From: a virus
IMG/VR virus record: IMGVR_UViG_3300010885_013316
Span: 1 to 24,693 of that record
Reading direction: 5' to 3' (one strand)
Length of the DNA stretch: 24,693 bases
Of the stretch, positions 600 through 23,732 are shown piece by piece. The notes under the pieces were generated by a model. The model saw only the letters and a list, made by a program, of their open reading frames with translations, did no database searches and had not been told where the DNA came from. Within the stretch, counting starts at the first letter, position 1. Each line of letters begins with the position of its first letter. The position numbers and the translations under genes were made by a program.

Positions 600-627
600 G
601 GGCAGCTTTTGGGCTGCCCTTTTCTTT
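600..627 (+). terminator. Intrinsic terminator after gp32, between convergent genes
   Basis: A perfect 7-bp GC-rich stem, GGGCAGC (600-606) and GCTGCCC (613-619), closes a 6-nt loop (ttttgg) and is followed by TTTTCTTT. It lies 35 bases after the gp32 stop and directly against the stop codon (626-628, opposite strand) of the leftward lysin gene. The T tract serves the rightward gp32 transcript. For the leftward transcript the same hairpin is followed by AATTCATT, so termination there is weaker or absent. Confidence 0.88.
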
Positions 628-2857
628 ATGAGAAGTGTCCGTTGACTAGATTGCCACTGTTATCACCATAAAGCTTTGCTCTATTCAAGGCTCTCAACTG
701 TGATGGTGATGATGCCATTGAACCAGAAGACATTGTATCCACAAAGTTTGGATCAGGCGTAGTTACTGGCATTGGCTGTTCTGGTTTTCTTTGCATAGGT
801 TGATTAGTCATTTCCATTCTCTGAGGTTCAACAGGCGCTATTTCAGCTTTTTGATCTTCTCGTCTTATAGTTGACGGATCAACTCTGAGATTACCCTGAT
901 CATCCTGAGTATAAAGTTCCCTGTCATTACTCACAAATTTAGTCTTACCAGTTGTTGTATTGATACCAACAACATTTTCTCCAGGAGTCATTTCAACTGT
1001 ACCGCCAGTTGATAATCCTGGTGCAGCTACAGGCGGTATTTCTGCTGCTGGCAATCCTGGTGCAGCTACAGGCGGTATTTCTGCTGCTGGCAATGCTGGT
1101 AATTCTGTAGGAGGTACCTGCATATTATTTTGTGCTGCTGTAACAGGATCTGAATTTACTCTTGCTGTCACCGCTTCTTCAGCTTTTTTATCAATTTCTT
1201 CTTGTTTCTTCTTTGTCCACTCAGCAAGAGGATCGTAATCATTTTTTTTATCTTGTTCTCTCAATGCAACACCTTCGGCATGAGCCTGCTTAAAGTATTC
1301 CATTCCTTGATATGCTAGAGGAGCATCGCCCTTCTTGTTAGGTCCACCTATGTGCATTGATGTTTTGCCCATATAGTTGTCATTTGGTGACCAGCCGCCA
1401 ACACCAGCACTTGGAATAGTTCTAGAAGAATTCTTTACAAATTCAGCAATCATTGGCCAATGTTCTGGATTGCTTTGATCTAGTATCACTTCATTATTAT
1501 TATCATCTCTATAAGCAAGTCTAATATCAGCCGCTCCGGGAGTATCTGGATTTTGTATATCATGTCTGTTTGAAGGATCAGATCCTGTTGCCGCTAGTGA
1601 GGCTTGTTGTTCTTCCGTTTGCCCACCGGAAAATACTTTAACATACAATCCAGATTGTTCAGCAGCATATTCAAGCGCGTTTCTTAATTCAGGTTTTAAT
1701 GGTGAACTTCTGAAACCTGCTTGTTCTTCACTAACACGACTTTCATCCGATGCTATAGATACAGCTTGTAGAGTTACATTATTAACTGGCTGTTTTTTCA
1801 TTGTTTCATTGAATTGAGCTGTACCTAATTTTCCTAGGGCATCTTCAAAATTTTTCTTTTGAATAGGATTAGCATTTGTGTAGTAATTTCTCAATCTTTC
1901 ATCAAGTTGATCAATCATACCAGCTTCAAATTTACCCATGACATCTTCTATACTTTGTATGTTTTGTGAGGCGCTTTCTATCTCAGCCTGTTTTAATCTT
2001 TCCTGCACTTCAATCTGATCATATCCTTGGTAAGGTCCAGAATAGTTTCCTCTAGCGGCAAAGATATTTCCTCCAATATTCACAAATCCTTGTTTTTCAG
2101 CATCTCTATAGAAATCTTTTCCTCTACCTTCACCATATACATAATAGTCGCCTCTGAATTCATTTGCTCCAAAGGTATTATCGGGAGCTGCGCCAGAAGA
2201 TAATATTTTAATTCTTTGACGAATATATTCCGCTTGGTCTTCGGATACTTTACCTTTATTGAATCCTTTAAATTGTACACCACTAGTGCCTTGTCCCTGA
2301 GAAGCAACATCAAGCAAATTGCTACCGTATTGATCAGAACCAACTCTATTCAACATAACATTGATAACAGCATCAACTCCATCTTTGCTGCTCATTCTAG
2401 CTTCACCAGCAATTGTTCTGATAACCTCATCACTTAAATCTGCGTCTGTTAAACTATATGCTGGTCTATATAATCCAATTTTACCTTCAGGCAAATCGGC
2501 ATATTGACCAACTTTTGCCCTTTGAAGAAGTTCTTGAACTGCTTTTTCTTCTGCTGAAGGACTTTTAAGAGGCTTTGATGTGTTTGGTGTATATGTACTA
2601 TCACTACTGTCTTTACCGCTTAAATTAGTACCGCCAGATAAAGCTCTTCCGAATGATGATCCGCCACCGCCAGATTGACCAACATCTGGTAACTTATCGC
2701 GGTAATATCTAGGAAATAGATTGACCAATTGACCAGGAGTTAATGATGATATTAGATCACTAACAGCACCACTTTGAGCCAGCGTTGTTCGATCCGATGG
2801 TATCATACGGAGCATTTTCTTATAGTCTATGGTCATATTCTCTAGATTAAATGCCAT
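626..2857 (-). CDS. Tail-associated cell-wall lysin with SleB-like and M15-like domains
   Basis: A 743-residue protein with two wall-degrading-type domains. Residues about 142-272 resemble the SleB/CwlJ (Hydrolase_2) fold: EVIRTIAGEARMSS, with presumed catalytic Glu152, then DAVINVMLNRV. Residues about 383-506 resemble an M15-type zinc peptidase: His432 (SNRHD), Asp444 (GAADIRL) and His502 (MHIGG). The His-Asp gap is longer than the usual HxxGxAxD. Between them lies a charged helical stretch (about 281-345); after them a Lys/Glu-rich helix (540-565) and a Pro/Ala-rich, low-complexity tail with a 13-residue tandem repeat. No signal peptide or membrane segment is seen, fitting a virion-borne enzyme rather than an endolysin. 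ATG at 2857 directly abuts the upstream stop (TAAATG), with GAGAAGA as ribosome site. It probably supplies the peptidoglycan-digesting activity that T4 gp5 carries internally. The role is inferred from domains and context. Confidence 0.75.
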   Translation of the reverse strand: MAFNLENMTIDYKKMLRMIPSDRTTLAQSGAVSDLISSLTPGQLVNLFPRYYRDKLPDVGQSGGGGSSFGRALSGGTNLSGKDSSDSTYTPNTSKPLKSPSAEEKAVQELLQRAKVGQYADLPEGKIGLYRPAYSLTDADLSDEVIRTIAGEARMSSKDGVDAVINVMLNRVGSDQYGSNLLDVASQGQGTSGVQFKGFNKGKVSEDQAEYIRQRIKILSSGAAPDNTFGANEFRGDYYVYGEGRGKDFYRDAEKQGFVNIGGNIFAARGNYSGPYQGYDQIEVQERLKQAEIESASQNIQSIEDVMGKFEAGMIDQLDERLRNYYTNANPIQKKNFEDALGKLGTAQFNETMKKQPVNNVTLQAVSIASDESRVSEEQAGFRSSPLKPELRNALEYAAEQSGLYVKVFSGGQTEEQQASLAATGSDPSNRHDIQNPDTPGAADIRLAYRDDNNNEVILDQSNPEHWPMIAEFVKNSSRTIPSAGVGGWSPNDNYMGKTSMHIGGPNKKGDAPLAYQGMEYFKQAHAEGVALREQDKKNDYDPLAEWTKKKQEEIDKKAEEAVTARVNSDPVTAAQNNMQVPPTELPALPAAEIPPVAAPGLPAAEIPPVAAPGLSTGGTVEMTPGENVVGINTTTGKTKFVSNDRELYTQDDQGNLRVDPSTIRREDQKAEIAPVEPQRMEMTNQPMQRKPEQPMPVTTPDPNFVDTMSSGSMASSPSQLRALNRAKLYGDNSGNLVNGHFS
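1014..1091. repeat. Perfect 39-bp tandem duplication in the lysin gene
   Basis: Two identical 39-bp units (1014-1052 and 1053-1091) encode LPAAEIPPVAAPG twice in the lysin's Pro/Ala-rich linker. A degenerate third copy (LPALPAAEIPP in the protein) begins on the N-terminal side. Exact nucleotide identity points to a recent duplication. Confidence 0.9.
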
Positions 2858-3055
2858 TTATCTTCTCTTTTTAAATGTTGCTGCTTGGTCACGATTTTTC
2901 TGCTCTTGTTCTTTTATGTGTTCTTTGAGCAAATCAACGTAAATAAATCTTTCCCAAGGAATCATTCCCTCTAATTCGGTTAGACTATACTTATGGAACT
3001 GCATGAGTGCAAAGTTAGTCTTGTAATGATTCATTAGTTTGTCATGGCCAAGCAT
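2858..3055 (-). CDS. Small P2 GpE'-like tail chaperone extension, probable frameshift product
   Basis: A 65-residue frame that can start at ATG 3055-3053, overlapping the gp26-like stop by one base (TAATG). The core, TNFALMQFHKYSLTELEGM followed by IPWERFIYVDLLKEHI, has the layout of the P2 GpE' family: aromatic-His, then a 'slxEL..M...E...W' type helix. The basic tail ends KKRR. In P2 and lambda, proteins of this kind are made as a -1 frameshift extension of a tail assembly chaperone. Here a correctly phased slippery site lies just upstream, so this segment may be expressed as the C-terminus of a 307-residue fusion, alone, or both. The only Shine-Dalgarno candidate before ATG 3055 is weak. 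Homologues in T4-like phages may carry hub-assembly names such as gp51-like; I cannot confirm that assignment. Confidence 0.7.
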   Translation of the reverse strand: MLGHDKLMNHYKTNFALMQFHKYSLTELEGMIPWERFIYVDLLKEHIKEQEQKNRDQAATFKKRR

Positions 3056-3780
3056 TATTGAAAAAAACGGGTAAAGTCCGTGTATTTAATCTTATGTTCA
3101 AATCCACACTTAGGGCATGTGCCATTCGATTCAATAGCAAAAGATGGTAGATTATCCACAAAAGATTCTAATTTCTTATACTGCTCACTGGTAAGACCCT
3201 CGATGAATTCTACCATTTCTTCCTTTGAGTAATCCTTACTTGAATATGTCTTATCGCCATTTGTAATTCGGTCAATACAACTAGAAATAATTCGTATTTT
3301 CTTTTGGAAATTACTTTCATTGCCTGTAATCATTTTCATGATAGAATAAGATGGATATTTCATCTTTATAGAAATCTTGCCTGATATGTTAATATCCATG
3401 GTAATATCATCTTTCTTTTCGATGACACAATTGGATATATCAATAACAGCATCAAATACGCCACCGCATTTAATACCATCTACCAGATTATTGCACACAT
3501 AAGAAGTCTCAATGTTTTCACCAATAGACTTGGCTCTCAATGCAATAAACAGGTAGTCCACATCAAAGAATGGCATCTTCTCTAGGTCAAGATCACCAGA
3601 CACAATACAGTTATTGATCACTTGCTTGGTGGTCTTAATGATATTCTCATTGTCTTTTGACTCGATTGCCATAAGCAAAAGCTTTTCTTCTTTTACCACA
3701 AACGGTCGAATTTTAATAGTCTTACCAGTCGATGGCAAGGTTATATCATAAATCGGCACATCAATTTTAGGTATAGTCAT
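3055..3780 (-). CDS. 26: gp26-like baseplate protein / tail assembly chaperone
   Basis: A 241-residue protein of the T4 gp26 (T4_baseplate) type; T4 gp26 is about 208 residues. The N-terminus, IPKIDVPIYDITLPSTGK then KIRPFVVKEEKLLL, is the hallmark of this family. Two Cys pairs, Cys96/Cys105 (YVCNN...IKCGG) and Cys222/Cys225 (TCPKCG), probably form a zinc site. The protein ends DFTRFFQ. In T4 this protein is assigned to the baseplate hub or its assembly. The short beta-rich N-terminal part and the coupling to a GpE'-like frame suggest a chaperone role like P2 gpE; that part is inference. The start at 3780 follows a good ribosome site (AAAGGA, about 3789-3794) in the 26-bp gap after the gp54-like gene. 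That gap also holds TATAAAGG, a 6/8 match to the late promoter element. Confidence 0.8.
   Translation of the reverse strand: MTIPKIDVPIYDITLPSTGKTIKIRPFVVKEEKLLLMAIESKDNENIIKTTKQVINNCIVSGDLDLEKMPFFDVDYLFIALRAKSIGENIETSYVCNNLVDGIKCGGVFDAVIDISNCVIEKKDDITMDINISGKISIKMKYPSYSIMKMITGNESNFQKKIRIISSCIDRITNGDKTYSSKDYSKEEMVEFIEGLTSEQYKKLESFVDNLPSFAIESNGTCPKCGFEHKIKYTDFTRFFQ
3061..3067 (-). promoter_or_regulatory. Putative -1 ribosomal frameshift slippery heptamer (T TTT TTT)
   Basis: On the minus strand the end of the gp26-like gene reads CGT TTT TTT CAA TAA TG. The seven T's occupy the phase X XXY YYZ exactly. After a -1 slip the next codons are TCA ATA ATG, entering the 65-residue frame without a stop and giving a 307-residue fusion (240 + Ser-Ile + 65). 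No clear downstream stem or pseudoknot was found by eye. Confidence 0.65.
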
Positions 3781-5147: not shown

Positions 5148-5588
5148 CTATTTAATACCTAATTCTTTCTCTGTGATAAGCTTAAACTGCCATCCTCTAT
5201 CAAGACAGTATTCTTCAGCAGCTTTCCACTTAGCTTGATTCTTACCCCATGTAGTTACCTCAGTAATATACTGTTTGGTAATACGCTTCTTTTTAGCAGG
5301 TTCAACAGTCTCTTTTCTAGGCTTTACTTCTAATAGCTGTTCTACAATATTACCATTCTTATCTATGGCTTTAATATAGAAGTCTGGGAAATACCTGTGA
5401 TACCGGTTATCTAATGGTGATATGTATGGTATTGCTATTTCCTCAGATGACCACTGAATAATCGATTTATTCTCATCTAGGTATACCATGAGCTTTCGTT
5501 CCCATAACGAACGGTATATGATTCCCGTTGGGTTACCTTTATATTTTTCAGGGTTCTTGGGGCTATATCTACCCTTGTAAGTTTTCAT
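5148..5588 (-). CDS. 4: Head completion protein gp4 (TnsA-type nuclease fold)
   Basis: A 146-residue protein, close to T4 gp4 (150 residues). The N-terminus KTYKGRYSPKNPEKYKGNP and the block YRSLWERKLMVYLDEN are characteristic. The PD-(D/E)XK-type core is visible: Glu30, then HRYFPDF with Asp69, and LLEVKP with Glu87-x-Lys89; then NQAKWKAAEEYC and RGWQF. In T4, gp4 is needed to complete filled heads so that tails can join. The start is set at ATG 5588 because the KTYKGRY motif follows at once; the longer frame opens only with a TTG at 5639 that lies within the divergent gp48 gene. No good Shine-Dalgarno is seen before 5588. The gp4-gp53-gp5 neighbourhood is like T4, but here gp4 is divergent from gp48/gp53. 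Confidence 0.9.
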   Translation of the reverse strand: MKTYKGRYSPKNPEKYKGNPTGIIYRSLWERKLMVYLDENKSIIQWSSEEIAIPYISPLDNRYHRYFPDFYIKAIDKNGNIVEQLLEVKPRKETVEPAKKKRITKQYITEVTTWGKNQAKWKAAEEYCLDRGWQFKLITEKELGIK

Positions 5589-5595
5589 ATAAATA
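5588..5595 (+). promoter_or_regulatory. T4-type late promoter element for the gp48 block
   Basis: TATAAATA, the exact T4 late -10 consensus, lies on the + strand 29 bases before the gp48 start. By T4 spacing the transcript would begin near 5601, giving a 24-nt leader that contains AGGGA as ribosome site. The first base of the element overlaps the first base of the divergent gp4 start codon. Confidence 0.75.
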
Positions 5596-5624
5596 TATAG
5601 AAAACAATTCCACAGGGAAAACAA

Positions 5625-6671
5625 ATGAGCATATGGCAAGATTTAGTTGATGCAGGACAGTATGCATATGAGGGTATTGTAGGGGGCACCGAGAATATTC
5701 TATCAGTTATCAATGAAGCGGACATAAGATCCCGCAACTTATTCGATTATAATATTAGTGATAGCACTCTTGGCCAGTCCCAGTATGATTTTAGATACCG
5801 CGTATTTCCTTCTGATCTAGCCAATGATTATGTTGGGCACTATATGGTAATTAATATTAATGTGCCTGTGTTCGCCTCTGATGGTAGAGCTAGAACATCG
5901 TATGGCGGATCTGCTTTTGGTCAGAACATATTAGAAAAAGAATATTCAAAGGTGGACACGCTGCGTTTTGGTAATGCAGAAAATGTAGGCGGTACTAGTC
6001 CAATTACACGCGGTGATGCTTTGAAAGCAGAACCATTATCTATTCCTCGATATACTCGCCGAATTAAAGAATCGATTGCTATGTTTATGCCTACTCCTGT
6101 GACATTTAATACCGTCAATGAATTTCAAGAAATAAGCTTGACAGGCATGGTTGGTGGATTAGCTACAGGTGCTGCGGCTCTTGTTGCCGGCGCATTATTT
6201 GGTGAGACAGGAGCAGATTTGGCCAATGCGGTTGGTGATTCGGCAGGTAAAGCCACAAGACTGGTTGGTTATCCAATTAATCCGCGCGTTGAGGTAATGT
6301 TCTCCAAAACAAATCTTCGCCAGTTTGTATTTGAATTTTTAATGGCACCACGCAATGAGCAAGAGTCCGAGAATATGAAGGCTATTGTTCGTACCCTTAG
6401 ATTCCACTCAGCACCAGAGCTTGACTCAACCACAGCAGGCTTCACATGGATTCCGCCCGCTGAATTCGATTTTACCTTCTATAATAAAGGTGTAGAAAAT
6501 ACAAATATTCCAAGAGTAAATACATGTGTTCTGGATCGCATCGAGGTAGACTATGCACCACAGGGAGTATATTCGACATTCTCTAATGGCCATCCAGTAG
6601 CAGCCAGACTTAGCTTAGGTATGAGAGAAATTGAAGTTGTCCACAAGCGCCGCGTTCTTCAAGGATTCTAA
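5625..6671 (+). CDS. 48: Baseplate tail tube cap gp48
   Basis: A 348-residue protein, close to T4 gp48 (about 364). The segment DFRYRVFPSDLANDYVGHYM with VININVPVF is typical of gp48 in T4-like phages (YPxDL...GHYMxFxI). The C-terminal part has the tube-type fold: RVEVMFSKTNLRQFVFEFLM, then ESENMKAIVRTLRFHSAPEL, and FTWIPPAEFDFTFY. gp48 caps the baseplate centre and, with gp54, starts the tail tube. An unusual hydrophobic Gly/Ala-rich stretch occupies residues 174-202 (GMVGGLATGAAALVAGALFG). The ribosome site AGGGA precedes the ATG. Translation of gp53 follows after a 2-base gap. Confidence 0.83.
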   Translation: MSIWQDLVDAGQYAYEGIVGGTENILSVINEADIRSRNLFDYNISDSTLGQSQYDFRYRVFPSDLANDYVGHYMVININVPVFASDGRARTSYGGSAFGQNILEKEYSKVDTLRFGNAENVGGTSPITRGDALKAEPLSIPRYTRRIKESIAMFMPTPVTFNTVNEFQEISLTGMVGGLATGAAALVAGALFGETGADLANAVGDSAGKATRLVGYPINPRVEVMFSKTNLRQFVFEFLMAPRNEQESENMKAIVRTLRFHSAPELDSTTAGFTWIPPAEFDFTFYNKGVENTNIPRVNTCVLDRIEVDYAPQGVYSTFSNGHPVAARLSLGMREIEVVHKRRVLQGF

Positions 6672-23516: not shown

Positions 23517-23732
23517 ATGAAAAAAACTGAGATTCCAGGAATATATAAGGTTTCGGAAGGTGTCCTCGTCAACAAAGATAACGAGGCCCTTCAGAAATAC
23601 AAGAAGAGACGCGATGCTATGAGAAGAACTGATAGACAGATAAATATTTTAGAAGAAAAAGTATCTAAGATTGATAAGCTTGAAAACGATCTAGAAGAAA
23701 TTAAATCACTATTAAAAAAGTTGGTAGAATAG
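23517..23732 (+). CDS. Small coiled-coil protein between wedge and fibre genes
   Basis: A 71-residue protein. IPGIYKVSEGVLVNKDNEAL is followed by a basic stretch (KYKKRRDAMRRTDRQ) and a C-terminal coiled coil with hydrophobic heptads (INILEEKVSKIDKLENDLEE IKSLLKKLVE). Similar short proteins occur at this place in T4-like phages of the cyanophage type; no function is established to my knowledge. Its position between the giant wedge protein and the tail fibre, with gaps of 4 bases on each side, suggests a small connector or fibre-assembly factor. The ribosome site is weak (AGGTC). Confidence 0.75.
   Translation: MKKTEIPGIYKVSEGVLVNKDNEALQKYKKRRDAMRRTDRQINILEEKVSKIDKLENDLEEIKSLLKKLVE

Follow-up and report, generated by a model that had tools for sequence, protein, structure and literature searches.

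The locus lies on the minus strand of a 24,693-nucleotide stretch of viral DNA (IMG/VR record IMGVR_UViG_3300010885_013316), the whole of which is referred to here as the window. A gp26-like gene encoding 241 amino acids (3780-3055) ends in CGT-TTT-TTT-CAA-TAA, and a second frame of 65 amino acids (3055-2858) overlaps its stop codon. The features of the locus are as follows.

626..2857 (-): gene downstream, 743 amino acids; weak match to a cell-wall hydrolase; candidate tape-measure or hub partner by its position
2858..3067 (-): -1 reading, from the heptamer to the stop of the 65-amino-acid frame; homologous to the T4 gp51 C-terminus and to PHROG 634
2861..3780 (-): coding region of the predicted 307-residue long form, from arithmetic on the sequence; domain order as in T4 gp51
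3053..3055 (-): ATG of the 65-amino-acid frame, overlapping the stop codon (TAATG); possible coupled restart
3055..3057 (-): 0-frame stop TAA, one codon past the heptamer, which terminates the short form
3055..3780 (-): gp26-like gene, short form; PF12322 T4_baseplate (E 4e-58) and PHROG 150 (E 7e-61)
3061..3067 (-): slippery heptamer T-TTT-TTT, in the X-XXY-YYZ phase of the gp26 frame; conserved in relatives

A sequence-only reading of the window had predicted a -1 programmed frameshift at this junction, and the sequence, phase, overlap and fusion that it described were all confirmed on the minus strand. Slipping back by one base, the -1 reading runs through TCA ATA ATG into the 65-amino-acid frame with no intervening stop, and the predicted product comprises 240 + 67 = 307 residues. 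The spacing given in that reading, six bases before the stop, is correct if the stop codon is included; the gap between the heptamer and TAA is 3 nt (CAA). Among 18 genes of the window that were scanned, this was the sole in-phase poly-T heptamer.

The gp26-like protein matched PF12322 over residues 9-240 with a score of 197 bits (curated cut-off 24.5), and aligned with the first 233 positions of PHROG 150. The 65-amino-acid frame matched PHROG 634, named 'baseplate hub assembly catalyst' (E 2e-25), and had a second match in PHROG 150, covering its last 45 positions. Since PHROG 150 was matched by both frames, this public family already holds the two parts joined.

Conservation of the slip site

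The slippery run was present at the same place in all 79 readable IMG/VR relatives of a first set. When the set was extended, T-TTT-TTN was found in phase in 180 of 199 related gp26 loci, and the gap from heptamer to 0-frame stop was exactly 3 nt in 177 of the 180 loci that carried it. Grouping into lineages (<70% amino-acid identity) gave an in-phase heptamer in 39/42. Bearers of the heptamer include the cyanophages P-SSM2, P-SSM4, P-HM2 and syn9, Pelagibacter phage Mosig, KVP40, Cronobacter phage LPCS28, rhizobial phages, pf16, YB07 and phiWae14. Across eight close relatives, synonymous variation was observed at 61% of the degenerate codons of the gene, and codons 234-240 formed its longest invariant codon run. 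By these comparisons the heptamer is conserved beyond chance.

The heptamer was absent in Det7, Cygsa01 and Vibrio D493, where just [AC]TT-TTC precedes the stop; the homologous C-terminal domain is still found in the -1 frame of all three. Det7 has no start codon near the junction, and its arrangement was identical in 15 related contigs, with an invariant ATTTTCATTTAA. The phages noted as lacking the heptamer and retaining this domain in the -1 frame are Ackermannviridae-like (L091:2298-2320, L184-L198, L094 and L098). As Det7 and its 15 relatives lack both a heptamer and a nearby start, another slip site (T_TTC) or another start may serve in them, and slippage on the T_TTC tetramer is a possible mode of expression in the phages without the heptamer.

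Sequence elements that might stimulate slippage were looked for on both sides of the heptamer. The sequence-only reading had proposed folding the 100 nt on the 3' side, and this gave a z of +0.55 for that segment and +1.09 for 75 nt, indicating no stimulatory structure in the window; of three relatives folded, one had a z of -2.1. A Shine-Dalgarno-like element about 10 nt upstream of the heptamer stood out by position in relatives (mean -5.4 kcal/mol, against about -2 elsewhere). Synonymous recodings of the element averaged -4.4, with values <0.05 in just 1 of 36 lineages. This candidate stimulator, which is weak in the window, was rejected as largely accounted for by the encoded amino acids.

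Relation to T4 gp26 and gp51 and to frameshifted chaperones

In T4, gp26 (208 amino acids) and gp51 (249 amino acids) are the products of separate, divergently transcribed genes. Both proteins matched PF12322, gp51 over its N-terminal 201 residues. The last 50 residues of gp51 aligned with the -1 domain of the window (BLASTP, 2e-5), and comparison of the -1 domain with a gp51 profile gave an E of 4.5e-10 and a probability of 96.7%. Judged by these alignments, it is the C-terminal domain of T4 gp51 that the -1 frame encodes. Since the remainder of gp51 belongs to PF12322, T4 has the fused long form in a single gene; on the same homology, gp51 corresponds to the long form and gp26 to the short one. 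The two systems therefore share a protein family and a C-terminal domain, whereas T4 has two divergent genes and no in-phase heptamer at the end of gp26, and the window has one gene with a slip site.

Searches of whole records found two copies of the PF12322 family in T4 and IME13, and one copy in each of ten other T4-like phages. The T4 gp29 tape-measure family was detected in T4 and IME13 only, among these 12 records. In a tree of 27 gp26 and gp51 sequences, the window grouped with marine T4-like relatives; the deep branches were not resolved, and the direction of the change between one gene and two is therefore something that we infer.

Frameshifted chaperones of other phages were used for comparison. 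The G/GT tail assembly chaperone (TAC) of lambda was reportedly described, with its relatives, by Xu, Hendrix and Duda in 2004. As described in the literature, lambda G/GT resembles the window in having a short form, a -1 slip near the 3' end and a longer form with a small C-terminal domain (PMC5009743). The window differs from it in its poly-T slip site and in a downstream gene that is a tape-measure candidate only. The TAC locus of Vandenendeviridae and Andersonviridae, again by its published description, shares with the window a conserved T-run, an open -1 frame and a C-terminal frame misannotated as a gene, and differs in belonging to other phage families and in its GTTTTT motif (PMC12846349). 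P2 E/E' (PF10109; -1 frameshift annotated in NC_001895) has the same layout as the window, with a T-TTT-TTG heptamer, but the C-terminal domains have no detectable sequence homology.

The sequence-only reading had gone further, and had taken the small frame for a relative of P2 GpE' on the basis of the pattern FHxxSLTELxxM...E. Profile comparison with hhalign gave a score of 9.8 and a probability of 0.2%, and the score lay within the range of 6.1-12.2 obtained from 30 column-shuffled controls, so that homology to GpE' was rejected. The P2 alignment used here was small and drawn from other phages; 80/80 P2 loci were identical to P2 in the part compared. No match of the small frame to the Pfam Phage_TAC or GpE' families was found. 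The best register of the two domains pairs FHWPPSELYPMSLTEL with HKYSLTELEGMIPWER, placing the SLTEL match in a different register, and the resemblance to P2 in these residues therefore appears to be coincidental.

Probable short and long forms from one gene, and alternative explanations

The presence of a gp51-like domain in the -1 frame, together with the two family copies of T4 and IME13 against one in ten other phages, indicates that the gene very probably yields two versions of a tail assembly chaperone, one short and one long. What we infer here is the slippage itself, its rate and the chaperone function. Most ribosomes would stop at the TAA at 3057-3055 and yield the 241-amino-acid gp26-like short form. 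A minority would slip back by one base, with two tRNA-Phe on T-TTT-TTT, and continue in the -1 frame to give a 307-amino-acid long form ending in the T4 gp51 C-terminal domain; the slip would set the ratio of short to long form. By analogy with lambda G/GT, both forms may act while the baseplate hub and tail are being built around the tape-measure protein, and phages of the T4 type would make the same pair from two genes, gp26 (short) and gp51 (long). The proposal that gp26 and its partner are a tail-chaperone pair was upheld as to a conserved -1 site joining a gp26-like protein to a small C-terminal domain, which is how a TAC gene is laid out, and not as to the relation with P2 GpE'.

Three other explanations of the junction were considered; counts out of 36 lineages refer to a set preselected for a heptamer and a complete -1 frame. 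Termination-coupled restart at TAATG could translate the small frame as a gene of its own, leaving the heptamer incidental. The TAATG of the window means that such separate translation is also possible there, and an ATG lies close to the junction in 15/36 lineages, as it does in the window. However, ATG, GTG and TTG are absent from the first six -1 codons in 20/36 lineages, in which the -1 frame could be expressed only by a frameshift or from an unknown start, and the alignment of relatives shows the -1 domain to be conserved from the junction onward. The heptamer is retained where the ATG is lost, the T-run ahead of the ATG shows nothing resembling a Shine-Dalgarno stretch, and T4 carries both domains in one protein; we consider a separate gene improbable. 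A fusion could also be generated if RNA polymerase, and not the ribosome, slipped on the T-run, which is a homopolymer of 7 T in the window and is longer in locus L018. In most relatives, however, the run is just six or seven T long before a C (T-TTT-TTC), which is short for polymerase slippage, and conservation tracks the codon phase X-XXY-YYZ, needed by ribosomal slippage and not by transcription, making an origin in transcription more improbable still.

The T-run might, lastly, do no more than encode a Phe-Phe that the protein conserves at its end. Phe-Phe is indeed conserved at the end of gp26, including that of T4, where it is encoded as TTC TTT with no in-phase heptamer. Yet the codon choice and the preceding T were fixed at the junction in 36/36 of the lineages, a set chosen for bearing the heptamer (the unconditioned figure being the 39/42 given above), whereas other Phe-Phe pairs in the same genes read T-TTT-TTY in 2/36 (Fisher p = 3e-18). 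In addition, 3/36 lineages keep the slippery run with a second codon that specifies Leu (TTA or TTG), and T4, which has a second gene, is without it. That amino-acid conservation accounts for the run is therefore scarcely credible.

In the sequence-only reading, T4-like phages were said to be often considered devoid of tail chaperones. The chaperone identity of T4-like genes was reportedly established by Vladimirov, Gautam and Davidson (Virology 2022, 566:9-15). The PRFect paper, in a passage citing Vladimirov et al. 2022, describes some T4-like phages as having a short gene and a long fused gene (PMC10885494), and a passage in a further paper, with the same citation, states that TAC genes in T4-like phages have poly-T frameshift signals (PMC12846349). 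As far as these passages convey it, the view that the chaperones are missing is outdated, and the principle, both the chaperone pair and the contrast between two genes in T4 and one gene elsewhere, is already published in outline.

A -1 frameshift in a single gene would have consequences for genome annotation. The -1 frame is annotated from an internal start, or omitted, in P-HM2, syn9, Det7, LPCS28, Mosig, DSL-LC03, D493 and phiWae14, in keeping with the lack of a nearby start in many lineages. Records of cyanophages and pelagiphages (L083-L086, L096 and others) list 'gp51' or 'baseplate hub assembly catalyst' as a separate gene, often with an internal start, or lack it. The cyanophage 'baseplate hub assembly catalyst gp51' is, with high probability, the frameshift-encoded end of gp26, and many T4-like genome records would then contain a misannotated gene. 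Under the frameshift reading, gp26 and gp51, which have long gone by the name of hub assembly factors and whose role was uncertain, would join the tail-chaperone system that long-tailed phages share. It would offer a natural comparison, for the same protein pair, between a ratio set by slippage in one gene and separate expression from the two genes of T4.

A broader scenario, which we advance tentatively and rate somewhat short of even, combines several of these elements. The one-gene -1 slip would be the ancestral and commonest chaperone mode of T4-like phages (cyanophages, pelagiphages, KVP40, rhizobial phages and others), and T4-type phages, with a gp29-type tape measure, would have split the products into divergent genes. 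Ackermannviridae-like phages would keep the -1 fusion at a non-canonical T_TTC, and marine T4-like phages would have their unrecognised tape measure in the gene just after the chaperone. In the window that gene encodes the 743-amino-acid protein, a candidate tape-measure or hub partner. It was not recognisable as a tape measure in searches. A weak match to a cell-wall hydrolase domain covers residues 157-266, and tblastn against 50,697 phage records gave no match at E 1e-3.

Sequence searches of solved structures with profiles of both frames gave no match. A predicted model of gp26, built from the window and IMG/VR loci alone, had a pLDDT of 88.8. Compared with the PDB it gave no match below E 0.001, and no TAC was found among solved structures; compared with viral models it retrieved phage proteins, mostly of its own family.

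Two further features of the window were noted. An in-phase A-AAA-AAG occurs at 23714-23720 (+), 19 nt before the end of a 71-amino-acid frame; the -1 reading from it meets a stop after 10 codons, and the site is therefore probably meaningless. A 163-amino-acid frame at 5148-5639 (-), with a TTG start and an overlap with an opposite-strand gene at 5625, resembles by eye a head-completion nuclease of the T4 gp4 type.
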